In this document: positions 12,929-26,607 of the stretch, piece by piece
Layout of the letters: every line of letters begins with the position of its first letter
How positions within the stretch are numbered: position 1 is the stretch's first letter
DNA from: Allobosea vaviloviae
GTDB lineage: Bacteria; Pseudomonadota; Alphaproteobacteria; Rhizobiales; Beijerinckiaceae
Assembly (NCBI RefSeq): GCF_001298265.1
Contig: NZ_LGSZ01000048.1
Span: forward strand, 310,001-374,000
DNA length: 64,000 nt
Direction of reading: 5' to 3'
Notes under the pieces: model-generated
Told to the model about the DNA's origin: nothing
What the model saw: only the letters and a program-made list of their open reading frames with translations
Databases searched by the model: none
Program-made: the position numbers and the translations under genes

Positions 12929-13075
12929 CCTGGTCAACACGGCATGGGCGCACAGTCTTCGATGATGCGGCCCGGCCGAAGAATTCTGACCACAGTATGC
13001 AGCTCGATGATTAATATTCCCTCTTTGTCGGGCAGTGAGCGGTAACCCTACCGCCAGGTTTCAAGGATGCCCTCT

Positions 13076-14020
13076 TCAGCCCGCGCCGAAGACCGACCAG
13101 CCCGTCGCCTCGGCGACCCGTTCCAGCGCCAGGGTGCCGATCTTCGAGTTGCCGCTGGTGTTGAGGCCGGGCGACCAGACCGCGATCGAAGCCCTGCCGG
13201 GCGCGATCGCCAGGATACCACCGCCGACCCCGGACTTGCCAGGCAAGCCGACGCGAAAGGCGAAATCACCCGAGGCGTCGTAATGACCGCAGGTCAGCAT
13301 CAGGGCGTTGATCCTGCGTGCGCGCAGGGCCGAGACGACGCGAGCGCCGGCCCGACCATGGCGTCCGCCATGCATCAGGAAACGGCCGGCCATGGCGAGC
13401 TGCCGGCAATTCATCGCGATGGCGCATTGATGGAAATAGACGCCAAGCGTCAGCTCCGGCGCATGTCTGATATTGCCGAAGGCCTTCATGTAATTGGCCA
13501 GCGCGATGTTGCGGAAACCGGTCGCCTGCTCGGCGCGCGCGACCGCCTCGTCGATGGCGATGGTGTCGTCGTCGGCGAGATAGCGCACGAAGCGCAGCAG
13601 CTCACCGATCGCCACGCGCGGCTCGTGCCCGCCGAGATTGACGTCCGCGACGACGAGCGCGCCGGCATTGATGAAGGGGTTGCGCGGAATGCCCTGCTCG
13701 CGCTCGAGCTGGACGATGGAATTGAACGCCGTGCCCGAAGGCTCGCGCCCGATGCGGTTCCAGAGCGCCTCGCCGACCTTGCCGAGCGCCTGCGTCAGCG
13801 CAAACACCTTCGAGATGCTCTGGATCGAGAAGGGTTCGAGCGCGTCGCCGGCCATGTGGACGGTCCCATCCGCCGTCACGATGCACAGACCGAAATGGCG
13901 CGGATCGATCGCAGCCAGCGGCGGAATATAGGTCGCGACCTCGCCGCGCTCGGGCAGGGCCGCCATCTCGTCTGCGATGTCGGCGACAAGCCGCGCAATG
14001 TCGGTCACGCTGTCTCTCAC
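13076..14020 (-). CDS. glsA: Glutaminase A
   Basis: This enzyme hydrolyses L-glutamine to glutamate and ammonia. The 314-residue protein belongs to the serine-dependent beta-lactamase-like glutaminase family: the catalytic Ser-x-x-Lys is in [10 protein letters not shown], followed by the conserved [11 protein letters not shown] and the C-terminal [11 protein letters not shown] loop. Length is normal for the family. The start is GTG at 14020; a second GTG four codons in is possible. It is followed on the same strand by the chemoreceptor, with about 150 bases between them. Confidence 0.93.
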
Positions 14021-14169
14021 CCCACGGCAGCAGCCAAAACCAAGCCCGAGCGCTTCACGCCGGTCAAGCGCGGCTCAGCCAAGGCCTTTGCAGCAGAGCG
14101 GTTTCAAACCTGGCCAGCGGCTCGGCCCGTTGCCTGCGACCTGGATCCGCAGCCCGGTTCGCGCCTCCG

Positions 14170-14964
14170 TCAAACCGCCTGGCGATAGACCCAAACGCGA
14201 GCGGGAGGAATATTCCGCAGAACCCAGTCCGAGACGAAGGCCTTGAGTCCGGAGCCCTTGCGCGGCAACGGAGACACCACCGAATAGGTGAACTGGATGA
14301 AGGGCGCGCCCTCCGCCAGCAGCGTGAAGGCGTCCTTGCCCAGGGCGGTCCGCATCGCCGGGGGTTGGTTGAACAGGGGCAGGCTCGAGACCACCGCAAT
14401 GGCCTTGCCGTCGAGATGCCCGGCCAGAGTCGTCGACAGGGCGTAGGCATCACCTTCGACCACCGTCGCCTGCGGGAAGCGCTGGCGCAGAAGCTTGCAG
14501 AATTCCGGGCTGTACTCGACCAGGATCAGCCGGTCTTCCCTGACGCCGCGCTCGATCAGCGCTTCGGTGACGGGCCCGGTGCCGGGGCCGATCTCGATGA
14601 CCGGGCCAGGCAAGGCCGGATCGACGAAGGAGGCCATGCGCCGGGCCAGCGCCGGGCCCGACGGCGTCACTGAGCCGGTCCGCATCGGATCGTCGATCCA
14701 AGACTTGATGAAGCGCGCCTCGTCGCCCAGTTTCGTCCGGGCCTCGCTGACGCGCGACCGCAGCTTCTCGGTCTTGCTACGAACCTCGTCCTGGACCTTG
14801 TAGCGCACCGTCGCGACCTTGAGCCGGGCTTCCGCGACGCTGTCGACCAAATCGGCGGCGGTCACCCGCATCTCGTCCTCGATGCGCAGGGCGACACGGG
14901 ACTGCCCGATGCGGGCTGCCAGCGATCGACCATGCGAGGACCGGCTGCGGGTCGTGAGTGACAT
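14170..14964 (-). CDS. pmtA: PmtA-type phospholipid N-methyltransferase
   Basis: PmtA enzymes use S-adenosylmethionine to methylate phosphatidylethanolamine towards phosphatidylcholine at the inner membrane. The SAM-binding motif EIGPGTGPVTEALIERG and the following LVEYSPEF, then the VSSLPLFN and FTYSVVSPLPRKG segments, match the rhizobial PmtA / rRNA-dimethylase-like group. Start ATG 14964 is preceded by AGAGG at good spacing, which favours it over GTG 14985. About 90 residues precede the methyltransferase core and look like a charged helical extension (AEARLKVATVRYKVQDEVRS), longer than I expect for the family. Substrate assignment is by family only. Confidence 0.75.
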   Translation of the reverse strand: MSLTTRSRSSHGRSLAARIGQSRVALRIEDEMRVTAADLVDSVAEARLKVATVRYKVQDEVRSKTEKLRSRVSEARTKLGDEARFIKSWIDDPMRTGSVTPSGPALARRMASFVDPALPGPVIEIGPGTGPVTEALIERGVREDRLILVEYSPEFCKLLRQRFPQATVVEGDAYALSTTLAGHLDGKAIAVVSSLPLFNQPPAMRTALGKDAFTLLAEGAPFIQFTYSVVSPLPRKGSGLKAFVSDWVLRNIPPARVWVYRQAV

Positions 14965-15002
14965 GAAACCTCTGACATCGCCCACGGGACGACCATCACC
15001 TT

Positions 15003-15016
15003 GTAACGAACGTTAC
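15003..15016. promoter_or_regulatory. Inverted repeat upstream of pmtA
   Basis: GTAACG-AA-CGTTAC is a perfect 6-base inverted repeat with a 2-base spacer, centred about 45 bases upstream of the pmtA start. The position suits an operator or an activator site. The binding protein is not recognised; the site is not the TTGAT-type box of an FNR-like regulator. Confidence 0.4.
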
Positions 15017-15086
15017 CTGCGCGTCATATGGGGTCAAGAGTGGTCCGGAGCCAAGTCTTAAATCCCGCGCGCGCGGCCAATCGGCG

Positions 15087-15842
15087 TCAGATCAGCGGTC
15101 TCGGCTCCAATTCCCGCTCGTAGAGCAGGGCCATCCGGGAGGTCAGGCGCGGATTGAGCAAGGTCAGGCGCCCGTCCGACGTCGAGAAAAGACCGGCCTT
15201 GCGCAACCTCGACCAGGTCTTGCTGGTGTGGACCAGCGACAGGCCGAGCGCGTCCGCGAGCTGCTGCTGGGACAGCGGAAAGCGAAAGCTGTTGTCGGCG
15301 ACCAACCCGAGCGCATCGGCCCGCCGATAGAGGGAAATCACCAGCGCGGCGATGCGCTCGCCGGCATTGCGCTGGCCGACCGAGGTCAGGTTCTGGTCGA
15401 TCAGGCTCTCCTCGCGCGAACCGAGCCAGGCGATCTCGTAGGACAGGCTCGGCATCCGCACGAACAGATCCCAGACCCGCTTGCGCGAGAACACGCAGAG
15501 TTCGACCTCGGTGAGCGCCTCGATACCGTGCTGGGCGGCACTCAGAAGGGAAGCCTGCAATCCGACCAGATCGCCGGGCAGTAGGAAGTTCAGGATCTGG
15601 CGGCGACCGTCGGGAAGAAGCTGGTAACGGAAGGCCCAGCCGGCAAACAGGGTATAGAGTTCCGCATCCTCCTGGCCGGGATGGATGATGTCGGCCCCCG
15701 GCGGCAGACGGCGATGCTCGACCTTCATCGACTGGATGAAGCGGACTTCATCGTCGGTCTTGTCCTTGAAGGCGGGCTTCAGCCGGAGCGGGCATGCCAG
15801 GCAGGGCACGCCGTTGCGGCCATGGTGGTCGGTATCCGTCAT
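15087..15842 (-). CDS. Crp/Fnr family transcriptional regulator
   Basis: This is a one-component regulator of about 251 residues with an N-terminal cyclic-nucleotide-binding-like beta roll (LPPGADIIHPGQEDAELYTLFAGWAFRYQLLPDGRRQILNFLLPGDLVGL) and a C-terminal Crp-type winged helix (LSQQQLADALGLSLVHTSKTWSRLRKAGL). The start is set at MTDTDHHGRNGVPCLACPL; the upstream part of the frame to 16037 is not family-like. It has a C-x-x-C pair near the N terminus but not the full four-cysteine pattern of oxygen-sensing FNR, so an Fe-S cluster is doubtful. It is divergent from the ABC transporter gene. Confidence 0.88.
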   Translation of the reverse strand: MTDTDHHGRNGVPCLACPLRLKPAFKDKTDDEVRFIQSMKVEHRRLPPGADIIHPGQEDAELYTLFAGWAFRYQLLPDGRRQILNFLLPGDLVGLQASLLSAAQHGIEALTEVELCVFSRKRVWDLFVRMPSLSYEIAWLGSREESLIDQNLTSVGQRNAGERIAALVISLYRRADALGLVADNSFRFPLSQQQLADALGLSLVHTSKTWSRLRKAGLFSTSDGRLTLLNPRLTSRMALLYERELEPRPLI

Positions 15843-15990
15843 GCCTCGCTCGATCCCCCGGCTCAGACAGTCCAGCGGTCCGCTTCCGTCCGCGATACGA
15901 TCCCAGTCGCAATTGTCCCCTGCGGAGAGCTTTCGCCCAGTTTGGATATCTTTGCCATCGGGCAGCGGAGCATTGCGCGCATTTCCTTGG

Positions 15991-16015
15991 GGAACCGTTG
16001 CTGACGCGGCACGTT
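15991..16015 (+). promoter_or_regulatory. EcfG-type stress promoter of the ABC transporter gene
   Basis: GGAAC (15991-15995), 16 bases, then CGTT (16012-16015): an exact match to the alphaproteobacterial general-stress sigma factor consensus. Transcription would begin near 16022, giving a leader of about 55 bases before the ATG at 16077. EcfG is encoded 5 kb away. Assignment is by motif and position. Confidence 0.8.
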
Positions 16016-16076
16016 GGCTGAAGGCGGCGATCCCCATGTGCGGCGAAGGCAGGCGCCGCCTGGAGTTCCGATTCTG

Positions 16077-17885
16077 ATGACTGAAACGCCGCCCGTTGCC
16101 AAGCGCTCGCGCATGCGGCGTTTTTTTGTCGTGGCCCTCCCGTTCTGGAGCGGCGAGACGCGATGGCGTGCCTGGGGCCTGACGCTCGTCGTTCTGACCT
16201 TCGTCGCCGCGCAGATCGCCACCGCCGTCGGCGTCAACGCCTGGAACCGTCTCTTCTTCGATGCGCTGGAAAAGCGTGACGTGGCGGCCGCCTGGAGCGT
16301 GGCGGCGTGGCTGCCCCTGCTGATCGCGGTGTCGGCACTCACCCTGTCCGCCCTGGTGATCAGCCGGATGCTGCTACAGATGCGCTGGCGCGAATACCTC
16401 ACACGCCGGCTCGCGGGCTGGTGGATCGCGGACCAGCGCTATTATCGGCTGCAATTCGTCGCCAGGGAGCAGGCGGCACCGGAATATCGCATCGCCGAGG
16501 ACGTCCGCCTCGCCATCGAGCCGCTCGTCGAATTCGCGATCGGGCTGATCAGCGCGGCGGTGACGGCCGCGACCTTCGCCGCGATCCTGTGGCATGTCGC
16601 AGGCTCTGCCCGCTTCATGCTGGCGGGCGTCGAGATCGTGATCCCCAGCTACATGGCGCTGGCCGCGATCGGCTATGCGCTCGTCGCCTCGCTCGCCGCC
16701 TATCTGACGGGGCGGCCGCTGGTTGCCAGGATCGCGGCCAAGAACGAGGCCGAAGCCCAGTTTCGCGCCGAGATGACGCGGCTTCGCGAGAACGCCGAAA
16801 GCATCGCGCTGATCCGCGGCGATGCCGACGAGCGCGGCTCAGTGGGCGAGAACTACGGCCGCGTCGTCGCGGCCTGGCTGCGCGTCATCAGGCAGCAGGG
16901 CGTCATCGCCCTCGTGCTCAACACCAATGGCGCGCTCTTCCCGATCGTGCCGCTGCTTCTGATCGCGCCGAAATACCTCTCCGGCGATGTCTCCCTGGGA
17001 GCGGTGATGCAGGTCGTGGCGGCCTTCAGCGCCGTGCAGGCAGCGCTGATCTGGTTCGTCGACAACTTCGTGCGCCTCGCCGAATGGTTCGCCTCGGTCA
17101 CCCGCGTCGACGAGTTGCAGGAGGCTCTGGAAGGGCTCGATGTCGGCACGATCATGGAGGGCGAGACCCATATCGACATGAAGGAGAGTGCCGATGGCGC
17201 GATCCACATCGACAGGCTCTCGATCGCCCACAGCAATGGCAGGGCCGTGATCGCGGACGCGTCGGTTGTGATCGGGCTTGGCGAGAAGGTGCTGATCGTC
17301 GGCGAAAGCGGCACCGGCAAGAGCACACTGATCCGCGCGCTGGCGGGGCTATGGCCCTGGGGTTCCGGTTCGATCGCGCTGCCGGCCGGCAAGTCGCTCG
17401 CCTTCGTGCCACAGAAGCCCTATCTGCCGATCGGGACGCTGCGCACGGTCCTGCTCTATCCCGAGGCCGAAAAGCCGGTGCCGGACCACATCGTCCTCGC
17501 CGCCTTGCGGCGATGCGGCCTGTCCTATCTCGCCAAACGACTCGACGATCAGGACAAGTGGGACCGCATCCTCTCAGGTGGCGAACGTCAGCGCGTCGCT
17601 TTTGCCCGTCTCGTCATCCAGCGGCCCGACATCATCATCATGGATGAGGCGACCTCGGCCCTCGACGAGGACAGCCAGAACGCATTGCTTGGTCTGTTCG
17701 AGGCCGAACTCGCTCACGCGACGGTCATCAGCGTCGGCCATCGCCCTGGGCTGGAGGACTTCCACGACCGCAAGATCACGCTGGAGAAGCGCCATGCCGG
17801 CGCCCATCTGAGCTCACGCCGTCTTGGCAAATCGCTGTGGCGCCTGTTCAAGACCAGGATCGCCGCCAATGACGAGGCGGCCTGA
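16077..17885 (+). CDS. ABC transporter, fused permease and ATPase (YddA/SbmA-like)
   Basis: The 602-residue half-transporter has an N-terminal membrane domain of the SbmA/BacA/YddA class (helices from about residue 20 to 340; NAWNRLFFDALEKRD is typical) and a C-terminal ATPase with Walker A GESGTGKST, signature LSGGERQRVAFARL and Walker B IIIMDEATSALDE. It probably works as a homodimer in the inner membrane. Relatives import peptides or vitamin B12-like compounds; the substrate here is unknown. The ATG at 16077 fits the alignment better than the earlier frame start at 16014. An exact EcfG promoter upstream suggests general-stress induction. Confidence 0.9.
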   Translation: MTETPPVAKRSRMRRFFVVALPFWSGETRWRAWGLTLVVLTFVAAQIATAVGVNAWNRLFFDALEKRDVAAAWSVAAWLPLLIAVSALTLSALVISRMLLQMRWREYLTRRLAGWWIADQRYYRLQFVAREQAAPEYRIAEDVRLAIEPLVEFAIGLISAAVTAATFAAILWHVAGSARFMLAGVEIVIPSYMALAAIGYALVASLAAYLTGRPLVARIAAKNEAEAQFRAEMTRLRENAESIALIRGDADERGSVGENYGRVVAAWLRVIRQQGVIALVLNTNGALFPIVPLLLIAPKYLSGDVSLGAVMQVVAAFSAVQAALIWFVDNFVRLAEWFASVTRVDELQEALEGLDVGTIMEGETHIDMKESADGAIHIDRLSIAHSNGRAVIADASVVIGLGEKVLIVGESGTGKSTLIRALAGLWPWGSGSIALPAGKSLAFVPQKPYLPIGTLRTVLLYPEAEKPVPDHIVLAALRRCGLSYLAKRLDDQDKWDRILSGGERQRVAFARLVIQRPDIIIMDEATSALDEDSQNALLGLFEAELAHATVISVGHRPGLEDFHDRKITLEKRHAGAHLSSRRLGKSLWRLFKTRIAANDEAA

Positions 17886-17946
17886 GCCTGCAGGCTCGCT
17901 CGCGTCGATGTGATCGGGGCTCGCCGGCCGCCCGGCCTCCCAAAAT

Positions 17947-17971
17947 GGAACCCTCTCGGCGTCCTTGCGTT
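17947..17971 (+). promoter_or_regulatory. EcfG-type stress promoter of the 92-aa protein gene
   Basis: GGAAC (17947-17951), 16 bases, CGTT (17968-17971), an exact consensus match. It lies 53 bases upstream of the ATG at 18024, in the intergenic region after the ABC transporter gene. Confidence 0.82.
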
Positions 17972-18023
17972 AACTCCTCACAAGCCGGCCGTTCTTGCCC
18001 GGCATAGGCGACGGGAGAGACAG

Positions 18024-18302
18024 ATGTTTGCTAACAGCTTTGCCCCCATCAAGCGCGCCGGCCTTTTCTTCGGATTCATGGGCGCCGCTGTTTTCGCGCT
18101 CACTCTCGGCTCCGGCTTGCAGGAGACCAACCGCGACAGCTCCGCTGCGGTTGCCCAGGCCAAGATCGAGCACAATCTTCCGTCCGACATCCGCCTTGCA
18201 GCGGTCAATCCGTCGCAGCGCTCGGTCGGCGTGACCCGTCGCGCCATCGGCGGCTCGCAGCAGGCGATGCTGTCGACAGCCAGCGGCGTCGTGACCCGCT
18301 GA
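18024..18302 (+). CDS. Small membrane-anchored or secreted protein, unknown function
   Basis: I do not recognise a family. The 92-residue protein has one hydrophobic segment (about residues 11-30, AGLFFGFMGAAVFALTLGSG) that could be a signal anchor or uncleaved signal peptide, followed by a polar tail rich in Ser, Ala and Gln (HNLPSDIRLAAVNPSQRSVGVTRRAIGG). The start ATG has GGGAGAG just upstream; the longer frame from 17910 is rejected because it would begin upstream of the stress promoter. The exact EcfG promoter and the terminator at 18390-18416 make this a discrete, stress-controlled unit. Confidence 0.75.
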   Translation: MFANSFAPIKRAGLFFGFMGAAVFALTLGSGLQETNRDSSAAVAQAKIEHNLPSDIRLAAVNPSQRSVGVTRRAIGGSQQAMLSTASGVVTR

Positions 18303-18389
18303 GAAAATCGCGCGTCATCAACCGCTGACCGGGAACAATCATGCCGGTGTCGCATTCATCTGACGATGTACCCCTCGCATCGCACTTCA

Positions 18390-18416
18390 AAGCCGCCTTC
18401 GGGCGGCTTGTTTTTT
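18390..18416 (+). terminator. Rho-independent terminator
   Basis: An 8-base perfect stem, AAGCCGCC and GGCGGCTT, closes a TTCG tetraloop and is followed by GTTTTTT. It lies 88 bases after the 92-aa gene and ends its transcript before the transglutaminase gene. Confidence 0.9.
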
Positions 18417-18470
18417 GTCGCGCCCCGCGGCTGATCAGGGCGGGAGCGCTTCTGCCACCGGAAACGACCC

Positions 18471-19349
18471 ATGTATCTGCGTATTCGGCATTCGACGACC
18501 TACAGCTATGGCGGCCCTGTGCAGTTCGGACCGCACCGGCTGATGCTGCGCCCACGTGACAGTTTCGACCTGCGCGTCGTCGATACGGCGCTGTCGATCT
18601 CGCCTCAGGCGCGGTTGCGCTGGATGCACGACGTCTACGGCAATTCGGTCGCGGTCGCCCATTTCGACGCGCCTGCCGATCAACTCGACATCGTCAGCGA
18701 ACTGCTGATCCAGCGTTTCGGCTCCGCCTTGCCGCGAACGGATGTAGAGCCGATGACGGCCGTCACAGCTGTGGTCTACAGCGATAGCGAGAGGATCGTT
18801 CTCCAGCCCTATCTCGATGCGGCGGCCGCCGACCCCGACGGCGTGCTCGAGCAGTGGCTGAGCGACTTCCGCAATCGGCTCGGCAGCGGGTCCGGTCACC
18901 TGCTGCGCGACCTCGCGCATGCGATCTATACGAGCCTCAGCTATTCCGTGCGCTATGACGAGGGCACTCAACACCCCGCCGATACGCTTCTCCAGCAGGC
19001 GGGCTCATGCCGCGACTATGCCTGGCTGTTCATCGAGCTCGCCCGACGCATGGGCTTCGCCTCGCGCTTCGTCACCGGCTACATCCATGACCGGACGCCC
19101 AATGCGGCCGGGCTGGTCTCGACGGTCGGCCTGACGCATGCCTGGGCCGACGTCTTCATTCCCGGCGACGGCTGGGTCGAGTTCGATCCGACCAACGACC
19201 TCGTCGCCGACCGCCAACTGCTGCGGGTCGCGGTCTCGCGTGTCCCGGAGGATGCCTCGCCCGTGTCGGGCAGCTTCACCGGGCTGCCCGGCTCCTTCCT
19301 GGGGCTGGGTGTCGGCGTCACCATCGAGACCGTCGAGGAGCCGAGCTGA
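18471..19349 (+). CDS. Transglutaminase-like cysteine protein
   Basis: The 292-residue protein has the bacterial transglutaminase N-terminal beta domain (MYLRIRHSTTYSYGGPV...) followed by a transglutaminase-like core with the catalytic Cys in GSCRDYAWLFIELARRMG, the His in THAWADVF and the Asp in VEFDPTND, so the triad is intact. No signal peptide is seen, so it is probably cytoplasmic. Relatives include peptidases as well as cross-linking enzymes; the substrate is unknown. It is located next to the stress-response operon with which it converges, and it has no convincing EcfG promoter of its own. Confidence 0.88.
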   Translation: MYLRIRHSTTYSYGGPVQFGPHRLMLRPRDSFDLRVVDTALSISPQARLRWMHDVYGNSVAVAHFDAPADQLDIVSELLIQRFGSALPRTDVEPMTAVTAVVYSDSERIVLQPYLDAAAADPDGVLEQWLSDFRNRLGSGSGHLLRDLAHAIYTSLSYSVRYDEGTQHPADTLLQQAGSCRDYAWLFIELARRMGFASRFVTGYIHDRTPNAAGLVSTVGLTHAWADVFIPGDGWVEFDPTNDLVADRQLLRVAVSRVPEDASPVSGSFTGLPGSFLGLGVGVTIETVEEPS

Positions 19350-19377
19350 GCGGCTCCGGGATCTCCGCCCGGGCCGC
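19350..19377. terminator. Stem-loop between convergent genes
   Basis: GCGGCTCCGGG and CCCGGGCCGC can pair in about 10 base pairs with one bulge, right at the transglutaminase stop codon. There is no T tract, so terminator function is only suggested by its position between convergent genes. Confidence 0.35.
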
Positions 19378-19413
19378 CGATCGCGGAAGGCATCCGCGCA
19401 AGGCCCTTTACGA

Positions 19414-21069
19414 TCAGACGTTGTGCCTGACGTGCCAGCTGCCGAGCCTGCGGCCTTCGGCGGGCTCCACCTGCACGGCTTCGATCTGTGCCACCAGGCC
19501 TGCAAAGATCTTGGGCGGCTCGCTCGGCGCGATCTCGCGATCCGCCTCGAGCGTGATCGCGATCGTCGATGCATCGACATCCCGCACGATGATTGTGAGA
19601 CTGACTCCGGGTGTGGTGCGCAGCATGCGCGAGGCCACGTCCACGACCAGGAAGCCGAGCGGTATGATCCGGTCGACCGACAGCGTCGCTTCCGTCTCGA
19701 GCCGGCTCGAGACCCATTGGTCGCGACGACGGATGAGATTGTCGATCATCGCGACCACATCCTCGATGAACAGGTCGACGCGCACCGGCTGCATTTCGCC
19801 ATCCGCCAGCGTAAAGCGATACGCAGCGGACAGAACGTGGACACGGCATTCCGCATCGGCCAACGCGAGTCTCGCTTCGTCGCGATAATCGCGCTTGGTC
19901 AAGCCGATATAGCTCTGCACGACCTGCAGGCTGTTCTTCACCCGGTGATGCAGTTCGCGCACGAGGAAGCGGTTGTCGTCCAGCGCGGTCTGGAGCCGCC
20001 GCTGGCGTACCTCCTGCTCGTCCACCATGGTATTGAAGGCTTCGGCGACGCTGCGGATGTCGGCCGGCATGTCCTCCGCGATGACCGCCCGGGCGTTGGG
20101 ATGGGTCGAACGGGCCCGCGCAGTGGCCTCGATACCACGCAGCCACACGACGCAATGCCGATCGATCGCGCGCAGATAGACGATGCAGAGCAGCAGCAGA
20201 GTCAGGAGCGGAGCGAAAAGCAGGACGAGGAACTGGACCCGCGCCGCGCGGGCCGGCGCCTCATCGAAGCTGGCGATGACATAAAGGTCGGGCTCCGCCA
20301 CCAACTGCGCCGCATAGGTCCGCATTCCGCCCGTGCGGCTTGGCGCCTCCCAGCGGATCTGGCCCGGCGGGACAACCTCCTCGCGCGGCAGCCAGGCATC
20401 CTCGTCGCTCTTCGTGCTGTTTCGACTGGTAACGACCGTGCCGCCGCTCGAGATGAGTGCGACCTTCATGCCTTCGCCGGCTTCACCGAGATCGAAAACC
20501 TGATCGAGCAGCTGCGGATCGACGAGAAGGAGCGCTTCCTGCAAGACCGTCGCCGGATCCGGGTTCCTGGTATAGATCGCCAGATAGCGGCGCTCCGCCA
20601 GCGTCACGTAGTCATAGCGAATCTGGGCGAGTTCAGCGCCGCCCCACACCTTGACCGGGGGCAAGCTTTTCAGCCGGGCAGAGGCAGCAACCAGGTCCGC
20701 GACCGTCAGGCCCGGATCGAGCGAGACCGCGCAAGCCCTGCCGGCATTCGTCAATACATGAAAGGCGCGATAGCCCTGAACCTGCTGCAGCAGGGCTCGA
20801 CCGGAGACGGCGCAATCAGCGTCCCCGCCGCTCGTGCTTGCAATCACGGTCCCGGTCGCGAGCAACGAACGCAGCGCACCACGATACCAGACGCGGGTGC
20901 GTACCGCGAAGCCGTCCGCGGCCCGCGCCTGGGACACCTCGATGGCGGCGATCACGGTGCGATAGGTCGTGAGCGCGGCCAGCGCGGTCAGGCACGCGAT
21001 CGGCAAGGCGATCGCCACCAGAAGCGCGAGAAGTCGTCCTCGAACGGTCTTGAAGCGCGCGAGGCGCAT
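19414..21069 (-). CDS. HWE/HisKA_2-type sensor kinase with degenerate ATPase domain
   Basis: The 551-residue membrane protein has two hydrophobic segments (about residues 12-35 and a second after the sensor, VQFLVLLFAPLLTLLLLCIVYL) flanking a periplasmic domain of about 230 residues, a HAMP-like stretch, then the HisKA_2 histidine box VRELHHRVKNSLQVVQSYI (about 370-388). The ATP-binding domain looks eroded: the N-box position reads LGFLVVDVASRML without the usual Glu and Asn, and I find no DNGxG motif. It is the third gene of a nepR-ecfG-kinase operon; its start overlaps the ecfG stop (TGATG). A phosphatase or adaptor role towards PhyR, as known for Sphingomonas PhyP, is an inference. Confidence 0.88.
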   Translation of the reverse strand: MRLARFKTVRGRLLALLVAIALPIACLTALAALTTYRTVIAAIEVSQARAADGFAVRTRVWYRGALRSLLATGTVIASTSGGDADCAVSGRALLQQVQGYRAFHVLTNAGRACAVSLDPGLTVADLVAASARLKSLPPVKVWGGAELAQIRYDYVTLAERRYLAIYTRNPDPATVLQEALLLVDPQLLDQVFDLGEAGEGMKVALISSGGTVVTSRNSTKSDEDAWLPREEVVPPGQIRWEAPSRTGGMRTYAAQLVAEPDLYVIASFDEAPARAARVQFLVLLFAPLLTLLLLCIVYLRAIDRHCVVWLRGIEATARARSTHPNARAVIAEDMPADIRSVAEAFNTMVDEQEVRQRRLQTALDDNRFLVRELHHRVKNSLQVVQSYIGLTKRDYRDEARLALADAECRVHVLSAAYRFTLADGEMQPVRVDLFIEDVVAMIDNLIRRRDQWVSSRLETEATLSVDRIIPLGFLVVDVASRMLRTTPGVSLTIIVRDVDASTIAITLEADREIAPSEPPKIFAGLVAQIEAVQVEPAEGRRLGSWHVRHNV

Positions 21070-21629
21070 CAGAGTCCGACGATTTCGGAGCCGACCCTTT
21101 GCATCGCGGCCGCACTCTTGCGATCGGGTCCGAGGTCATCGAGGCTCCCGATCGACAAGAGTTCGGCGAGTTTCGTGCGAGCGCGGTTGACCCGGCTCTT
21201 GATCGTGCCGATCGCGACGCCGCAGATCTCGGCCGTCTCCTCATAGGACAGGCCCGTCGCGCCAACCATGATCAGCACCTCGCGCTGCTCCTCCGGCAAT
21301 TTCGCCAGGGCCTTGCGGAAGTCGGCCAGGTCGAGATGGCTTTCCTGGTTGCCGTGCGTCGCCATGCGTTCGGCATAGGTCCCCTCGCTGTCCTGCACCT
21401 CCCGACCGCGCTTGCGATAGAGCGAATAATAGGTGTTGCGAAGGATCGTGAACAACCAGGCGCGCAGGCTGGTGCCAGGCTCGAATTTCTCCGAGTTGCC
21501 CCAGGCCTTCAGCAGCGTGTCCTGAACGAGATCATCGGCCAGTTGCATCGAGCCCGACAGCGAAGCAGCGAAGGCCCGCAGGTTCGGAATCTCCTTGATG
21601 AGGCCGTCCTTGAACTCACTTGCGCTCAT
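21069..21629 (-). CDS. ecfG: General stress response sigma factor EcfG
   Basis: This ECF sigma factor directs RNA polymerase to GGAAC/CGTT promoters. The 186-residue protein has region 2 (LADDLVQDTLLKAWGN; LRAWLFTILRNTYYSLYRKRGRE) and region 4 (LPEEQREVLIMVGATGLSYEETAEICGVAIGTIKSRVNRARTKL). Its identity as EcfG rests on the neighbouring nepR and phyR. Its start lies inside the end of nepR (14-base overlap) and its stop overlaps the kinase start, so expression is translationally coupled. In the known cascade NepR sequesters it until phosphorylated PhyR captures NepR. Confidence 0.95.
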   Translation of the reverse strand: MSASEFKDGLIKEIPNLRAFAASLSGSMQLADDLVQDTLLKAWGNSEKFEPGTSLRAWLFTILRNTYYSLYRKRGREVQDSEGTYAERMATHGNQESHLDLADFRKALAKLPEEQREVLIMVGATGLSYEETAEICGVAIGTIKSRVNRARTKLAELLSIGSLDDLGPDRKSAAAMQRVGSEIVGL

Positions 21630-21831
21630 CTGGGAATGCTCCGACGGCGCGATGTTCGGTTGCCTCGAGTTGGGCGAGCAGAACCAGAAACTTGTCCGGT
21701 ACCGGCGCGTTGACGATGTCGTCGTAATGCGCCTTCAGCGAGCGACCGATGGACTCCTGCACCTTCGGATCAAGCATCAGTTCGCTCTCCCCCCCGTCGG
21801 AATCGTCCATCGCCGTATCTGCGTCGCTCAT
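21616..21831 (-). CDS. nepR: Anti-sigma factor NepR
   Basis: NepR is a small alpha-helical anti-sigma factor that binds either EcfG or the sigma-like domain of phosphorylated PhyR. The 71-residue protein contains the conserved core IGRSLKAHYDDIVNAPVPDKF followed by LLAQLE, with an acidic N terminus. It is the first gene of the minus-strand operon, overlaps ecfG by 14 bases and is divergent from phyR, which is the standard arrangement in Hyphomicrobiales. An EcfG-type promoter variant lies about 110 bases upstream, giving positive autoregulation. Confidence 0.95.
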   Translation of the reverse strand: MSDADTAMDDSDGGESELMLDPKVQESIGRSLKAHYDDIVNAPVPDKFLVLLAQLEATEHRAVGAFPDERK

Positions 21832-21940
21832 GTCAGCCCTCGCACAAAAACCAGGCCTGCTTTTCCAGCGGGTCCCGTCATCCTACTCACCCAAGTCCGG
21901 ATGCCAGCGATGGGCGATACCGACACTCGTACTCCCCTTC

Positions 21941-21965
21941 AACAGGGTTCCACCCAGAAAGTTCC
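21941..21965 (-). promoter_or_regulatory. EcfG-type promoter of nepR-ecfG (variant -10)
   Basis: On the minus strand GGAAC (21965-21961) is followed after 16 bases by TGTT (21944-21941), one base off the CGTT consensus. Its position upstream of nepR matches the autoregulated promoter known for this locus in other alphaproteobacteria. A second GGAAC at 21951-21947 has no matching -10. Confidence 0.65.
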
Positions 21966-22044
21966 AGCGTCCGCGAAAAATAAATCGCTTGTCAGCAGGC
22001 CCCGCCGGATGCTCATTTCCGGCACGTTTCAAGAGGACATATCT

Positions 22045-22845
22045 ATGTCGATTGCCAAGGAAATTGCGCCGCATTTGCCCTATTTGCGCCGTTTCGCACG
22101 CGCCTTGACGGGCACGCAGAACAGCGGCGACGCCTATGTCGTGGCGATGCTGGAGGCGCTGGTGCTCGACCCCAGCGCTTTCCCGCGCGATCTCAACCCG
22201 AGGATCGGTCTCTATCGCACCTTCCTCAAGCTCTGGTCCTCGGTCGGCCTCAATACGGCCGAGTCCGGCACCGCAGCGTCGCTCAATCACTCCCCGGTGG
22301 AGCGCAACCTAGAGGCGCTGACCCCGCGTCCGCGTCAGGCGTTCCTGCTGCGCACGGTCGAAGGGTTCTCGATCGACGAGGTCGCGAGCATCATGGACGT
22401 GTCTGCGGCGGATGCCGCCGGCCTCGTCCAGACCGCGGGCCAGGAGATCGCCGAACAGGTCGCGACGGATGTCCTGATCATCGAGGACGAGCCGATCATC
22501 GCGCTCGACATCGAAACCATGGTCGAGGAACTCGGCCATACCGTCACCGGCGTGGCCCGTACCCAGCGCGAGGCCATCGCGCTCGTCGCCAAGAAGCGTC
22601 CCGGACTCGTCCTGGCGGATATCCAGCTGGCCGACGGCAGCTCCGGCCTCGATGCGGTCAACGAAATTCTCGCCTCCATCGACGTGCCGGTGATCTTCAT
22701 CACCGCCTATCCGGAGCGGCTGCTCACGGGCGACCGGCCGGAGCCGGCCTTCCTGATCACCAAGCCGTTCCAGCCCGAGGCTGTGAAGGCTGCGATCAGC
22801 CAGGCGCTGTTCTTCGACAGGCGCGCCGGCCGCAAGGCCGCCTGA
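22045..22845 (+). CDS. phyR: General stress response regulator PhyR
   Basis: PhyR is a two-domain anti-anti-sigma factor. The 266-residue protein has an N-terminal EcfG-like sigma mimic domain (residues 1-130; PRPRQAFLLRTVEGFSIDEVA) and a C-terminal receiver (about 142-262) with acidic E147/D148, phosphoacceptor D192 (LADIQLADG), T220 and K240 (LITKPF). Phosphorylation exposes the mimic to bind NepR and free EcfG. The ATG at 22045 has AGAGGA upstream; the frame extends to 21595, but that part overlaps nepR and is not PhyR-like. A strong terminator follows. Confidence 0.96.
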   Translation: MSIAKEIAPHLPYLRRFARALTGTQNSGDAYVVAMLEALVLDPSAFPRDLNPRIGLYRTFLKLWSSVGLNTAESGTAASLNHSPVERNLEALTPRPRQAFLLRTVEGFSIDEVASIMDVSAADAAGLVQTAGQEIAEQVATDVLIIEDEPIIALDIETMVEELGHTVTGVARTQREAIALVAKKRPGLVLADIQLADGSSGLDAVNEILASIDVPVIFITAYPERLLTGDRPEPAFLITKPFQPEAVKAAISQALFFDRRAGRKAA

Positions 22846-22896
22846 CCCTGCTGCATTCGGGCATCTCTCACGCCCGTCTCCATTCCCGGGAATCCG

Positions 22897-22926
22897 GCCT
22901 GCGGTGCCTTGCGCCGCGGGCTTTTT
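22897..22926 (+). terminator. Rho-independent terminator of phyR
   Basis: GCCTGCGG and CCGCGGGC pair over 8 bases (one G-U), with a 9-base loop and a following TTTTT. It lies 52 bases after the phyR stop. Confidence 0.88.
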
Positions 22927-23008
22927 CAGGTGTGACCTTCGGTTCGGGATCGCCTCTGGCGATCCGCTCAGTCTGTCGATGTGTCCGACAGAGAACACAT
23001 CGCGCCCT

Positions 23009-23035
23009 CGGAACCGGACCACGGCATCCGCGTTC
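23009..23035. promoter_or_regulatory. EcfG-type promoter, readable on both strands
   Basis: On the plus strand GGAAC (23009-23013), 16 bases, CGTT (23030-23033) is an exact match, 60 bases before the 54-aa gene. Because the motif is partly palindromic (GGAAC ... GTTCC), the minus strand also reads GGAAC (23035-23031), 16 bases, GGTT (23014-23011), another accepted variant. The plus-strand reading has a clear target gene; the minus-strand reading has none that I can see. Confidence 0.8.
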
Positions 23036-23093
23036 CATCGGCGGGTAATATCCAAAAGAAGCGTCGGTTCGGCATCTGGGAGGGTGTGAAGCC

Positions 23094-23258
23094 ATGGCCA
23101 TGACGTTCCTCGCAGCGGTGGTCACCGCGACGTCGATCGCGGCAGCCCTGTTCGGCGGGCTGGTGCAGCAAGGCGCGCTTGTGTCGGAGGTTTTGTCGCT
23201 CGGCCTTGCCGGCGTCACCGCGATTGCAGTTGCAAGCGCATCGGCGCTCGACAGCTGA
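23094..23258 (+). CDS. 54-aa hydrophobic protein under stress promoter
   Basis: The frame encodes 54 residues, starting MAMTFLAAVVTATSIAAALF and ending ASASALDS, almost entirely Ala, Val, Leu, Thr and Gly. It probably forms one or two membrane segments. No family is recognised. Support for a real gene: GGAGG lies 10 bases before the ATG, an exact EcfG promoter lies 60 bases upstream, and the phyR terminator isolates it from phyR. It is likely an inner-membrane stress protein, with function unknown. The extensin-like gene follows and may be cotranscribed. Confidence 0.65.
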   Translation: MAMTFLAAVVTATSIAAALFGGLVQQGALVSEVLSLGLAGVTAIAVASASALDS

Positions 23259-23386
23259 CCCTGCTCCAAATCAGGCGACGAGCGGGGCGCAGGACGGCGC
23301 GAGGCGTCCTCCTGCGCGCCACGGCGATATGTGGAGGCCTTGCGCTTGCATCCCTTGGCTGCGGCAACGAAGCGGCCTCCCGTCCG

Positions 23387-24145
23387 GTGCTCGCCGTCGA
23401 AGCGCCTTTGCCGCCGCGCCGCCCACCCAGTCTTCCACCGACGCGGCCTGTCGCGCCCGAATTGCCGCCCGCAATCCAAGCACCTGGAGCTGAACCCGCG
23501 AGCAAACCGGCGGCAGAATCGTCTCCGGAGCAGAAAAACTCTGGCGAGCCAAACGCTGCCGCCGCGCCCGGTGCAAGTTGCGTGGAGGCGTTGGTGGCCA
23601 TTCATGGCAGCGGCGTGCGCGCAACCGAGATCAAGCCCGGTCACGACGCGGCCTGTTCCGTCGTCGATCCCGTCGTGGTCGAGGCTCTGACCGTGAGAGC
23701 AGGGAGCGTGTCGGTGCGGACCAGCCTACAGCCGCCGGCGACCTTGAGCTGCACCATGGCGAAGGCCGTCGCGCTATGGCTCGAGACGAGCGTCCAACCG
23801 TTGGCGAAAGGCTATTTCGCTCGCGAACTGACCGAACTGCGGGTGGGTGGCGGCCACGAATGCCGTCGCCGCAACAGATCGACGAATGGGCCACTCAGTG
23901 AGCATTCGACCGGGCAGGCCCTCGATATCTTCGCGTTCGTGACCGGAGACGGCAAAGCGGATGAAACGGTTGTGGTCGAGAAACCTCACGATGCGACGCA
24001 GGAACGCTTCCTTGCGGCAATCAGGCAGTCGGCCTGCGGCGCCTTCATGACCAGCCTGGGCCCAGGTTCGGATGCCGCCCACGCCAATCACCTGCATGTC
24101 GACATCCAGCCGAGACGCTCGGCCTCAAGTCGCTTCTGCCAATAG
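23387..24145 (+). CDS. Extensin-like family protein, probable cell-wall peptidase
   Basis: The C-terminal 180 residues match the extensin-like domain family: CVEALVAIHGSGVRATEI, ATLSCTMAKAVALWLE, GHECRRRN and the motifs SEHSTGQALDIF and HANHLHVDI. The last two resemble the zinc-binding SxHxxGxAxD and HxH motifs of M15 peptidoglycan peptidases, so wall remodelling is plausible. The N-terminal 65 residues are a Pro/Ala-rich linker. The start shown is GTG 23387. The same frame continues upstream without a stop into a lipoprotein-signal-like stretch (ATAICGGLALASLGC) but has no ATG, GTG or TTG there, so the true start is uncertain (CTG 23312 is possible). Confidence 0.8.
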   Translation: MLAVEAPLPPRRPPSLPPTRPVAPELPPAIQAPGAEPASKPAAESSPEQKNSGEPNAAAAPGASCVEALVAIHGSGVRATEIKPGHDAACSVVDPVVVEALTVRAGSVSVRTSLQPPATLSCTMAKAVALWLETSVQPLAKGYFARELTELRVGGGHECRRRNRSTNGPLSEHSTGQALDIFAFVTGDGKADETVVVEKPHDATQERFLAAIRQSACGAFMTSLGPGSDAAHANHLHVDIQPRRSASSRFCQ

Positions 24146-24156
24146 CGCTCCAGGTC

Positions 24157-24185
24157 GAGCCTGAGCCTCGTATCGGCTCAGGCTC
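24157..24185. terminator. Bidirectional hairpin between convergent genes
   Basis: GAGCCTGAGCC and GGCTCAGGCTC form a perfect 11-base stem with a 7-base loop. It starts 11 bases after the extensin-like gene and covers the stop codon of the convergent 87-aa gene. There is no strong T tract. Confidence 0.6.
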
Positions 24186-24441
24186 CGGCGAGAACGACGG
24201 TCAAAAGCTCGTGCCGTATGGGCTTCTGAAGAGGTCCCGGCGCGTGGATGTCGGGAGGTTGAATCGCGGCGTCGTGGAATCGCAGCGTCGTGGCCGGCCT
24301 CCGCGCCGCCATCACGGCGAGCGCCGCCTCACGGGGGAAGCCGTTCCCGATCAAGTCCTCCAGCTCCCAGAACGGCGGGGCATCGGCGCCACCAGACATG
24401 GGCAGCGGCGAGGTCTGAATGGCGGCTTGGCTCTGGCTCAC
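24178..24441 (-). CDS. 87-aa protein of unknown function, stress promoter
   Basis: I do not recognise the family. The predicted protein starts at GTG 24441 (MSQSQAAIQTSPLPMSGGADAPPFWELEDLIGNGF...) and has a helical middle (REAALAVMAARR); it is soluble with no signal peptide. The frame is open back to an ATG at 24552, but an exact EcfG promoter lies inside that extension with its transcription start near 24471, so the shorter form is preferred; AAAGG and GGGGG lie upstream of the GTG. Third-position GC is high throughout, as in real genes here. It is divergent from the DUF992 gene and converges on the extensin-like gene. Confidence 0.6.
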   Translation of the reverse strand: MSQSQAAIQTSPLPMSGGADAPPFWELEDLIGNGFPREAALAVMAARRPATTLRFHDAAIQPPDIHAPGPLQKPIRHELLTVVLAGA

Positions 24442-24477
24442 GATCCCCCGGCCTTTCCCATGCGACGGTGACGTTCC

Positions 24478-24502
24478 AACGCAACGGACGTTAACCAGTT
24501 CC
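24478..24502 (-). promoter_or_regulatory. EcfG-type stress promoter of the 87-aa gene
   Basis: On the minus strand GGAAC (24502-24498), 16 bases, CGTT (24481-24478), an exact match, about 37 bases before the GTG start at 24441. It is back to back with the plus-strand site at 24512-24536, with 9 bases between the two -35 elements. Confidence 0.78.
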
Positions 24503-24511
24503 AGCTTGCGC

Positions 24512-24536
24512 GGAACTGTGGTCCCTGTACGGCGTT
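24512..24536 (+). promoter_or_regulatory. EcfG-type stress promoter of the DUF992 gene
   Basis: GGAAC (24512-24516), 16 bases, CGTT (24533-24536), an exact match 30 bases before the ATG at 24567. Start of transcription is expected near 24543. Confidence 0.82.
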
Positions 24537-24566
24537 TGATCGTCACCTTCATGTCAGGAGCTCCAG

Positions 24567-25070
24567 ATGAACATTCGCCATTCGCGGCCGGTCCTCGCTG
24601 CTGTTGTCGCTGCAGTGGGCTTTCTGGTTTCAACCGCTCCCTCTTTCGCCCAGTCCGGCCCGCCGACGGGCCGCCTGACTTGCAATGTCGGCGGCGGCCT
24701 CGGTCTGGTCGTGACATCCCAGCGGCCGATGAACTGCACCTTCACGCCGCGTCGCGGACCTGCGCAGCGCTATGTCGGCGTCGTCAGGAATTTCGGCCTC
24801 GATCTCGGGACGATCCGCAGCAGCACCATGTCATGGCGGGTGTACGGCCCCTATGCCCGCGCGCCGCTCGGGGCACTCTCGGGACAGTATGCGGGCGCGA
24901 CGGCCGGTGCCTCGGCCGGCGTCGGCGGCAGCGCGAACCTGCTGGTCGGCGGCAACAACAACGAGGTCACGCTCCAGCCGCTGTCTCTTCAAGGGTCGCG
25001 CGGCGTGAATGTCGCGCTCGGCGTAACCGGATTCGAGCTGAACCTGGTCCGGCCCGGCCGGCGTCGCTAA
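24567..25070 (+). CDS. DUF992 family secreted protein
   Basis: The 167-residue protein has a clear signal peptide (MNIRHSRPVLAAVVAAVGFLVSTAPSFA, cleavage about residue 28) and a DUF992 domain that begins GRLTCNVGGGLGLVVTSQRPMNCTF and includes YGPYARAPLGALSGQYAGATAGASAG and a C-terminal FELNL. The two conserved cysteines (LTCNV and MNCTF) may form a periplasmic disulfide. The family function is unknown and it is mostly alphaproteobacterial. AGGAG lies 6 bases before the ATG. An exact EcfG promoter 30 bases upstream marks it as a general-stress protein. Confidence 0.88.
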   Translation: MNIRHSRPVLAAVVAAVGFLVSTAPSFAQSGPPTGRLTCNVGGGLGLVVTSQRPMNCTFTPRRGPAQRYVGVVRNFGLDLGTIRSSTMSWRVYGPYARAPLGALSGQYAGATAGASAGVGGSANLLVGGNNNEVTLQPLSLQGSRGVNVALGVTGFELNLVRPGRRR

Positions 25071-25167
25071 CCGCTGCGCGGCCGCCTGCGATCCTATCCC
25101 GGGGTTACCGTTTGCTAACCTTGTTGCATCTCATTTGACGTAAAACAGGCTGCTTTTGGTACCCTCA

Positions 25168-25192
25168 GGAACCTCGCGATCCCGCTAACGTT
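25168..25192 (+). promoter_or_regulatory. EcfG-type stress promoter of the response regulator gene
   Basis: GGAAC (25168-25172), 16 bases, CGTT (25189-25192), an exact match 50 bases upstream of the ATG at 25243. Confidence 0.82.
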
Positions 25193-25242
25193 GTCCAGTC
25201 GATACGTTGTTGGGTTCAAAACTGGAAAGGCAGCGGCAGTCG

Positions 25243-25620
25243 ATGTCTGATATCCGCGTCCTGATCGTCGAAGACGACCCGTTCATCGCCATGGACATCG
25301 AGTCCGCGGTGGCAGAGCAGCTCGGCACCCGGGCTGAGCTGATCGTCGTCGAATCCCTCACGCAGGCCCGCCACATCTGTGCGTCGAAGCTATCCTGCGC
25401 GCTTTTGGATATCGATGTGGTGGGCGGCAAGACGTTCGACGTCGCAGCGAACCTGCTGCGGAACGGGACGCCGTTCGCCTTCGTGTCGGGGTCGACCCCC
25501 ACCGATGTGCCTGAAGACCTGCGTACCGTGCGCTTCCTGCGCAAGCCGTTCTCGACGCAGGAAATCGCGCGCTTCGTCTCGGATGCTGTCGCGGCATCCC
25601 AGAACCCGTCGAGCGCCTAA
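25243..25620 (+). CDS. Single-domain response regulator, FAT GUY-like
   Basis: The 125-residue protein is a receiver domain only: acidic E10/D11/D12 (IVEDDPF), phosphoacceptor D56 (CALLDIDV), S82 in place of the usual Thr, and K101 (FLRKPF). The segment PFAFVSG resembles the PFxFATG motif of FAT GUY single-domain regulators, such as SdrG, which act in the general stress response phosphorelay. The exact EcfG promoter upstream fits this. The start at 25243 is chosen because the receiver begins there. Its stop codon overlaps that of the convergent VOC gene. The histidine kinase or phosphotransfer partner is not known. Confidence 0.88.
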   Translation: MSDIRVLIVEDDPFIAMDIESAVAEQLGTRAELIVVESLTQARHICASKLSCALLDIDVVGGKTFDVAANLLRNGTPFAFVSGSTPTDVPEDLRTVRFLRKPFSTQEIARFVSDAVAASQNPSSA

Positions 25621-26489
25621 GGCGCCCGCAGAACCAGCCGGTTGCCCCACGGGTCGGCGATCGCGGCGCCGTCAGCCGTTTCAGCGCCGCCGGCCGCGAG
25701 CATGCGTCCGCGCATCGTTTCGAAATCCTCCCGGTCGCGGGCAACCAGTTCAAAAGACGCAAGCCCCGCTTCGCCAGCCTGGCGCGGAGCTGCGCCCCGG
25801 CTGTTCCAGACATTGCCGGCGATATGGTGGTGATAGCCGCCACTCGCCATGAAGCTGGCGCCGGGATAGCGAACCATCAGGTCGAAACCGAGAACGCCGA
25901 CATAGAAGCTCTCGGCCTCTGCGGTGTCGCCGACGCGAAGGTGGATGTGGCCGACCCGCGTCCCGCTCGGCATGCCGGCATAGGCGCCAGCGCGGGCTTC
26001 GGCGAGCAATGCTTCCAGATCGAGGCGCTCGGTCGCCATCTTGATCGCGCCGTCACGACGCGGCCAGTCGGCGCGCGGGCGGTCGCGATAGATCTCGATG
26101 CCGTTCCCCTCCGGATCGGAGAGATAGAGCGCTTCGCTGACGAGATGGTCCGAGGCTCCCTCGAGCGGGAGGCGCGTCGCCGCGGCATGCCCGATCCAGT
26201 CGGCGAGATCGGCGCGCGACGGCAGCAGGATCGCGGTGTGGAACAGTCCCGCCGGCGATGTCGGACGCATCGCGCCCTGTTCGAGCCGCACCAGCACCTG
26301 CCCATCGACGCCCAGCGTCGCGACACCGGCGCCGGTCTCGATCAGGGTCAGGCCGATCGCATCGCGATAGAAGGCGGTCAGAGCGGGCAGATCGTGCACG
26401 CGCAGCGTCACCGCCCCGATATGGAAGGGCGCATCGAGCGCTTCCAGATTGACCGGCGTCTTCATCTTGCTGTCCTGGACCGCGATCAT
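25617..26489 (-). CDS. Two-domain VOC family protein, CatE-like
   Basis: The 290-residue protein contains two vicinal-oxygen-chelate halves: FHIGAVTLRVHDLPALTAFYRDAIGL with YLSDPEGNGIEIYRDRP, and VGHIHLRVGDTAEAESFYVGVLGFDL with YHHHIAGNVW. This resembles the CatE/YfiE catechol 2,3-dioxygenase group, with His and Glu as metal ligands. The start ATG at 26489 follows GGGAGG. The reaction is not certain: glyoxalase, dioxygenase and thiol transferase members share the fold. It lies downstream of the FAD oxidoreductase gene on the same strand (118 bases between) and may be in one transcript with it. Confidence 0.83.
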   Translation of the reverse strand: MIAVQDSKMKTPVNLEALDAPFHIGAVTLRVHDLPALTAFYRDAIGLTLIETGAGVATLGVDGQVLVRLEQGAMRPTSPAGLFHTAILLPSRADLADWIGHAAATRLPLEGASDHLVSEALYLSDPEGNGIEIYRDRPRADWPRRDGAIKMATERLDLEALLAEARAGAYAGMPSGTRVGHIHLRVGDTAEAESFYVGVLGFDLMVRYPGASFMASGGYHHHIAGNVWNSRGAAPRQAGEAGLASFELVARDREDFETMRGRMLAAGGAETADGAAIADPWGNRLVLRAP

Positions 26490-26607
26490 GGCAGCCTCCC
26501 TCGTTCGCGGCGTCGAGCCGCATCGCCGATAGATGCGCCTTGAGGGCGGGCTTGTCTGCCCCGGCTTCCGCAAGATCGAGATTGCGCCGTCGCAATCCCG
26601 AGGCGGT

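Follow-up and report, generated by a model that had tools for sequence, protein, structure and literature searches.

A histidine kinase homologue with a degenerate ATP site at the nepR-ecfG-phyR locus of Allobosea vaviloviae and its probable role as a PhyT-type phosphotransferase

The nepR-ecfG-phyR locus and its sensor protein

We analysed a stretch of 64,000 nucleotides of the Allobosea vaviloviae genome (contig NZ_LGSZ01000048.1, positions 310,001 to 374,000), called the window below, around the gene of a sensor protein of the general stress response, here called HK. As listed in Table 1, the gene order is nepR-ecfG-HK with HK as the last gene and phyR divergent, and the stop codon of ecfG overlaps the start codon of HK by one base (TGATG), in agreement with the initial annotation, which had placed the protein in the nepR-ecfG operon. 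The two sequence stretches quoted in that annotation, VRELHHRVKNSLQVVQSYI and LGFLVVDVASRML, are both present in the 551-residue ORF. A further ORF of 702 residues (19138-21246), antisense to the HK gene, was regarded as an artefact of high G+C content.

Table 1. Genes, protein domains and promoter-like boxes of the stress locus (window positions)
Feature	Position	Strand	Basis and remarks
HK, PhyT-type sensor protein	19414..21069	-	ORF, 551 aa; Pfam HisKA_2; NCBIfam PhyK model
HK periplasmic dCache-like sensor, about residues 36-278	20236..20964	-	AlphaFold pLDDT 85; predicted
HK DHp domain, residues 367-442	19744..19971	-	HisKA_2 match; phospho-acceptor His375 at 19945-19947
HK CA-like domain, residues 443-551	19417..19743	-	Bergerat-like fold predicted; lid, N-box Asn, G1 and G2 boxes lacking
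HK N-box remnant, residues 470-484 (PLGFLVVDVASRMLR)	19618..19662	-	alignment with intact kinases
ecfG, general stress sigma factor	21069..21629	-	Pfam Sigma70_r2 and Sigma70_r4_2
nepR, anti-sigma factor	21616..21831	-	Pfam NepR, E 5.5e-14
EcfG-type promoter-like box of nepR-ecfG-HK	21941..21965	-	GGAAC-N16-TGTT, one base off the SGTT form
phyR	22045..22845	+	PhyR_sigma2, PhyR_sigma-like, Response_reg; start codon read from sequence
EcfG-type box upstream of the DUF992 gene (24567-25070)	24512..24536
EcfG-type promoter-like box 5' of the regulator	25168..25192	+	GGAAC-N16-CGTT
SdrG-like single-domain response regulator (candidate phosphate donor for HK)	25243..25620	+	PDB match; start codon read from sequence

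HK is composed of a dCache-like periplasmic sensor, a linker, a HisKA_2-type DHp domain and a degenerate CA-like domain, in this order, and Pfam matched HisKA_2 with an E-value of 4.7e-11 and HWE_HK more weakly. The 16 contig loci closest to HK (65-86% identity) comprise 13 named Bosea and three named 'Rhizobiales bacterium', which assigns the window to Bosea. For residue counts we used a Bosea-group set of 61 sequences, the window and 60 others, after one sequence with a split frame (L278) and one with N-terminal Ns (L227) had been dropped. The phospho-acceptor His375 is kept in 61 of 61, so the histidine box is intact as had been claimed at the outset. All 61 sequences likewise carry the DHp motif E372-L-x-H375-R-V-K-N, with H at position 374 in 59 of them and N in two, and with it the HRxxN motif found in proteins of the PhyT/PhyP type.

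Loss of the ATP site in a conserved CA-like domain

Aligned with intact kinases, HK has Asp477 at the position of the N-box Glu (Asp in 57 of the 61 Bosea-group sequences, Glu kept in 4) and Arg481 at the position of the N-box Asn (57 sequences have Arg and 4 have Ala); no G1 or G2 glycine is left in HK, and the DxGxG box is gone. HK thus lacks the N-box Asn and the G1/G2 glycines by which an active HWE/HisKA_2 kinase is recognized. Since the exchange of the Glu is conservative, the decisive losses are those of the Asn and the glycine boxes. The initial annotation had described an N box without Glu and Asn and with no DNGxG box following it, which was correct, the one refinement being that the Glu is replaced by a similar residue. 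One reference alignment (A3) contained 34 of 36 listed references, and another (A4) 24 of 32 listed ones plus the window. Pfam detected no HATPase family in HK up to E 10, nor in any of the cytoplasmic parts of 30 family homologs at E 0.01; in a set of 16 proteins, consisting of 8 of these family homologs and 8 intact kinases encoded in the window's own genome, HATPase_c_2 matched 7 and HATPase_c matched 4. Asp466, Arg467, Ile469, Pro470, Gly472, Leu483, Asp510, Gly524, Leu525, Gln528 and Ala531 do not vary among the 61 Bosea-group sequences, which gives the CA-like domain a distinct signature.

Structure prediction for the cytoplasmic part (residues 302-551; pLDDT 90, 35 sequences) placed a Bergerat-like domain next to the DHp helices; at the site of the lid, the secondary-structure line shows no more than a short link. 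The best structural match of this model was the EL346 histidine kinase (Z 16.7, 164 residues, 3.6 A), and the CA-like domain matched the ATP-binding domain of PrrB (Z 13.6, 118 residues, 2.3 A), isolated ATP-binding domains scoring at Z about 13.5; ChpT and Spo0B were not among the structure matches listed, which excludes nothing. The alignment and the C-terminal model, both of which the initial annotation had proposed, give a predicted Bergerat-like fold in which the ATP-site residues and the lid are missing. Sequence and predicted structure lend good support to the accompanying suggestion that HK may not autophosphorylate.

In the N-terminal part, two long helices are predicted to flank the dCache-like domain, consistent with a membrane anchor and a periplasmic sensor, and the sensor model matched dCache ligand-binding domains at Z about 15. 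Pfam assigned no family to the HK sensor, and among 25 members one had a weak CSS-motif match (0.027). Two cysteines of the sensor are conserved, Cys86 in 59 and Cys113 in 61 of the 61 Bosea-group sequences; in a wider set of 25, Cys113 is invariant and Cys86 is present in at least 90%.

Median dN/dS, calculated by the simple Nei-Gojobori method from 1781 of 1830 pairs with synonymous changes near saturation, was 0.54 for the sensor of HK, 0.24 for the linker, 0.065 for the DHp domain and 0.39 for the CA-like domain; an intact CHASE3 kinase, described below, gave 0.40 for its sensor, 0.071 for its DHp domain and 0.29 for its CA domain. With every HK median below 0.6, the CA-like domain is under purifying selection. 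Because, in addition, the loss is common to the window and the 60 other Bosea-group sequences, sequencing error, a pseudogene or chance can be ruled out as its cause. The ATPase-dead appearance of HK is thereby confirmed as a real and conserved feature. As a separate observation, HK is split into two frames at L278 (genome G208), the single such genome among the 67 of the genus.

Distribution of the loss among relatives

A family search matched at least 66 of 149 genomes at 1e-8, and not one of the 30 loci listed, the window's own included, keeps the N-box Asn. Glycine occupies the first G1 column in three of these 30 homologs and the second in three others, never both, and a G2 column in one. 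A simple motif search found an ecfG- or nepR-like ORF near 28 of the 30; the exceptions are L011 and also L017, which lies at the end of its contig. Of the 80 named contig loci, 37 have both ecfG and nepR in the vicinity, and none of these keeps the Asn, compared with 2 of 3 that have ecfG only and 39 of 40 that lack ecfG; L088, the single Asn-less locus among these 40, has a phyR-like match nearby. The family, named and genus loci overlap in species, and their counts are not additive. In the genome of the window itself, all 8 other HWE/HisKA_2 kinases keep the N-box Asn, and their cytoplasmic parts are 12-21% identical to that of HK; a broken kinase on contig 23 (L051, L052) was left out of this count of intact kinases. 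The same contig carries, at 13000-21000 (L285), a broken HWE kinase fragment together with a regulator-like stretch with stops.

In a sample drawn from the whole class, at least 60 of 337 genomes matched at 1e-12, and the best 29 non-window loci were read. Fifteen of them are ecfG-linked, with the site intact in eight, the Asn kept but G1 lost in three and the Asn lost in four; at L287 and L306, which have nepR but no ecfG nearby, the Asn is missing too. A class-wide loss of the ATP site is ruled out by the eight intact loci. Whether relatives share the loss, as the initial annotation had asked, is thus answered in the affirmative for the family sample, whereas at the level of the class the loss is not general. 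At five ecfG-linked loci (L289, L314, L315, L092 and L109), the Asn is kept and G1 is partly lost, possibly an intermediate state.

A tree of 61 chosen rows, built by a quick method from linker and DHp columns without the CA domain and containing some long branches, required three changes for the loss of the ATP site, two of which were forced by starred branches. The 62 rows offered for it comprised 19 family loci out of 30, 15 named loci out of 80, 24 class loci out of 29 and four of the eight other kinases of the window's genome, and any row with too short a linker was removed. Of the rows with a lost site, 33 fell into one starred group, mostly Hyphomicrobiales as judged by the named rows and including Kiloniellaceae; L292, L294 and L297 formed a separate starred group, and L106 lay among the partial rows. 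A single loss for all Asn-less HKs fits poorly with a tree that needs three changes, so the losses may be separate. The loss is old.

A single-domain regulator, a CHASE3 kinase and EcfG-type promoter boxes near phyR

About 2.4 kb beyond phyR lies a gene for a single-domain response regulator, the two best PDB matches of which were SdrG (5ieb, E 6.5e-8) and Sma0114 (E 4e-7). Its residues E10, D11, D12, D56, S82 and K101 are kept in 56 of 56 other Bosea-group regulators. When SdrG was used as query on the same genome, it matched a regulator on contig 58 best (7.8e-9), then the PhyR receiver (1.5e-8) and then the regulator near phyR (1.3e-7), and in place of PFXFATG[G/Y], the motif of FAT GUY regulators according to a reference title in PMC6599016, the latter reads PFAFVSGS. 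Two more single-domain regulators occur among HWE kinases on contigs 58 (L283) and 12 (L284).

The order HK-ecfG-nepR, divergent phyR, an optional extensin-like gene, DUF992 and the regulator was found at 57 of 63 loci (62 fetched and the window), which are not independent because this cluster conservation lies within one genus. At the remaining six the regulator is off the locus, being on another contig in two (L238, L258) and missing in four that have a divergent HK. Among 67 genomes of the genus, HK is present in 63 and the regulator, at 1e-15, in 60, one of which (G084) has the match within a 564-aa ORF at another site. Each of the 59 genomes with a window-type HK also has the regulator; the other eight without such a regulator, four with a divergent HK (38-40% identity) and four with no HK, may represent one or a few lineages. 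At 46 of the 57 loci, a match to a CHASE3-HisKA_2-HATPase kinase lies 23 to 148 bp from the regulator match; this spot is taken by a glyoxalase gene in 10 of the other 11, window included, and by neither gene in one. The N box, G1 and G2 of the CHASE3 kinase are intact in 47 of 47, and its likely ortholog in the genome of the window is located about 39 kb away with 61% identity.

A consensus close to GGAAC-N16/17-SGTT is given for EcfG in PMC4814048, where EcfG-dependent promoters are described for both divergent units. We found GGAAC-N16/17-SGTT upstream of the regulator at 56 of 57 loci, of DUF992 at 47 of 59 and of nepR at 36 of 63, rising to 57 of 57, 48 of 59 and 61 of 63 when any base was allowed before GTT; as these are related loci, the counts measure conservation and are not independent trials. 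The SGTT form was found upstream of phyR at 0 of 63 loci, of the CHASE3 kinase at 0 of 46 and of HK itself at 1 of 63, and a looser GAAC form upstream of phyR (interval 21832-22044 in the window) at 6 of 63. At the regulator, 89 sham motifs matched a mean of 0.9 of 57 loci, the highest, GGAAC with TTG, reaching 29 of 57, which seems to reflect the true motif in a shifted register. The spacing of the boxes is almost wholly 16 or 17, and with spacers of 15 to 18 the window contains 8 sites versus 2.1 expected, a number reached by 0 of 100 shuffles. The DUF992 gene is probably part of the stress regulon. A scan for sigma-70 promoters over 19000-26700 returned no promoter-like site, and terminator-like sites were no more frequent there than in shuffles. 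Two further observations concern the neighbourhood: a transglutaminase-like gene next to HK (18471-19349) has an EcfG-type box, with the first G optional, at 23 of 46 loci and none in the window, and positions 23010-23036 of the window match the EcfG-type box on both strands.

Comparison with PhyT and PhyK

PhyP of Sphingomonas melonis was initially reported to be a negative regulator; on re-testing it had no PhyR phosphatase activity in vitro and was renamed PhyT, which passes phosphate from SdrG to PhyR in a relay Pak-SdrG-PhyT-PhyR and forms a complex with PhyR, a phosphatase mode in vivo being left possible by the authors (PMC5898713). HK resembles PhyT of strain Fr1 in its location at the phyR locus, its predicted membrane anchor and periplasmic sensor, its HRxxN motif and its degenerate ATPase domain, a likeness drawn from the described features of PhyT. 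By locus, architecture, motif and degenerate ATPase domain, HK is of the PhyT (formerly PhyP) type. The initial annotation had offered two roles, dephosphorylation of PhyR as by PhyP and the relaying of signals from other kinases; the comparison with PhyP is out of date because the later re-test did not confirm the earlier reading, and it is the relay role that is better supported.

The NCBIfam PhyK model (NF051872) matched residues 21-478 of HK, sensor included, with E 1e-35, at 123 bits versus the cut-off of 750 for a PhyK equivalog. PhyK of Caulobacter crescentus serves as the phosphotransferase that links MrrA and PhyR, showed no autokinase activity even though its ATP site is conserved, and requires a periplasmic cysteine for function (PMC5964349). 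PhyK thus keeps a conserved CA domain, whereas HK has lost those residues. Bab1_1673, which is located at its GSR locus (PMC4438053), Rpal_4707, RsiC and also LovK are listed as PhyP-type GSR proteins (PMC5898713). HK shares this PhyP-type label with them by description. ChpT and Spo0B are soluble relay proteins of other pathways. Described as phosphotransferases derived from histidine kinases (PMC5898713), they are like HK in that the DHp domain is kept and kinase function is lost.

A proposed phosphorelay and alternative roles of HK

Taken as a whole, it is probable, in our judgement, that HK serves as a PhyT-type histidine phosphotransferase and PhyR tether and not as a kinase. In the proposed relay, upstream HWE/HisKA_2 kinases, one of which would be the CHASE3-HisKA_2 kinase adjoining the regulator in most Bosea, would phosphorylate a single-domain regulator, probably the SdrG-like one near phyR. 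The phosphorylated regulator would in turn phosphorylate His375 of the HK dimer, HK would pass the phosphoryl group on to PhyR, and PhyR~P would bind NepR, so that EcfG is freed. Unphosphorylated HK would hold PhyR at the membrane and limit activation, and transfer of phosphate may be gated by the dCache sensor and its two cysteines. Every phosphotransfer step, the tethering of PhyR and the identity of the donor are inferred. What we observed is the loss of the ATP site with an intact His, purifying selection, conservation of operon and cluster, and an EcfG-type box upstream of both the nepR operon and the regulator gene. Locus and promoter make the regulator near phyR a probable candidate donor, its orthology to SdrG being ambiguous. 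Against the relay stand the better matches of SdrG to the contig-58 regulator and the PhyR receiver, the deviation from the FAT GUY motif, and the lack of an adjoining CHASE3 kinase at the regulator of the window and of 9 relatives.

It is unlikely that HK is mainly a negative regulator, acting as a PhyR~P phosphatase or by pure sequestration of PhyR with no activating relay. DHp domains can act as phosphatases, which counts for such a role. The first description of PhyP and the PhyT-PhyR complex in S. melonis also speak for it, but PhyT was without phosphatase activity in vitro (PMC5898713), and the presence of His375 in 61 of 61 sequences together with a regulator in the same locus fits transfer better than binding alone. 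We consider it still less likely, indeed very unlikely, that HK is the pseudokinase subunit of a heterodimer in which an intact partner kinase, and not a regulator, phosphorylates His375 in trans through its CA domain; eight kinases with an intact N box are available in the same genome as partners, but the low identity of their cytoplasmic parts to HK and the use of single-domain regulators by both PhyT and PhyK (PMC5898713, PMC5964349) argue against it.

That HK is a kinase with an unusual nucleotide site appears highly improbable: the predicted Bergerat-like fold and the invariant Asp510 would be in keeping with it, but neither the Asn nor the glycines of G1 nor the G2 box is left, a short link is predicted in place of the lid, and even PhyK, with its site conserved, showed no autokinase activity (PMC5964349). 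The split gene in 1 of the 67 genus genomes would suit a decaying gene without function, an explanation that the presence of HK in 63 of the 67 and a median dN/dS below 0.6 in every domain leave with hardly any probability at all.

Returning to the phosphotransferase reading of HK, sdrG and the kinase genes are scattered in S. melonis (PMC5898713), whereas in Bosea the regulator lies near phyR and in most cases the kinase does too. We tentatively suggest that most Bosea may have a nearly complete, dedicated four-step relay in one cluster, comprising the CHASE3-HisKA_2 kinase, the regulator, the ATPase-dead dCache phosphotransferase and PhyR, in which EcfG-type promoters on the regulator and on the phosphotransferase operon might form a feedback loop and the periplasmic cysteine pair might provide a second input at the relay step. 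New here are the SdrG-like regulator near phyR (57/63 loci), its EcfG-type box (56/57) and the adjoining CHASE3 kinase (46/57); we found no description of the Bosea cluster among the open-licence papers searched. Whether PhyT-type proteins outside Sphingomonas act as relays was left open in the Discussion of PMC5898713, and the Bosea locus, which sets candidate donor, transferase and target side by side, makes this question directly testable. More generally, ATPase-dead kinases at a stress locus exemplify the conversion of a sensor kinase into a relay protein, and the ecfG-linked relatives, with ATP sites that are intact, partly lost or lost, constitute an evolutionary series.
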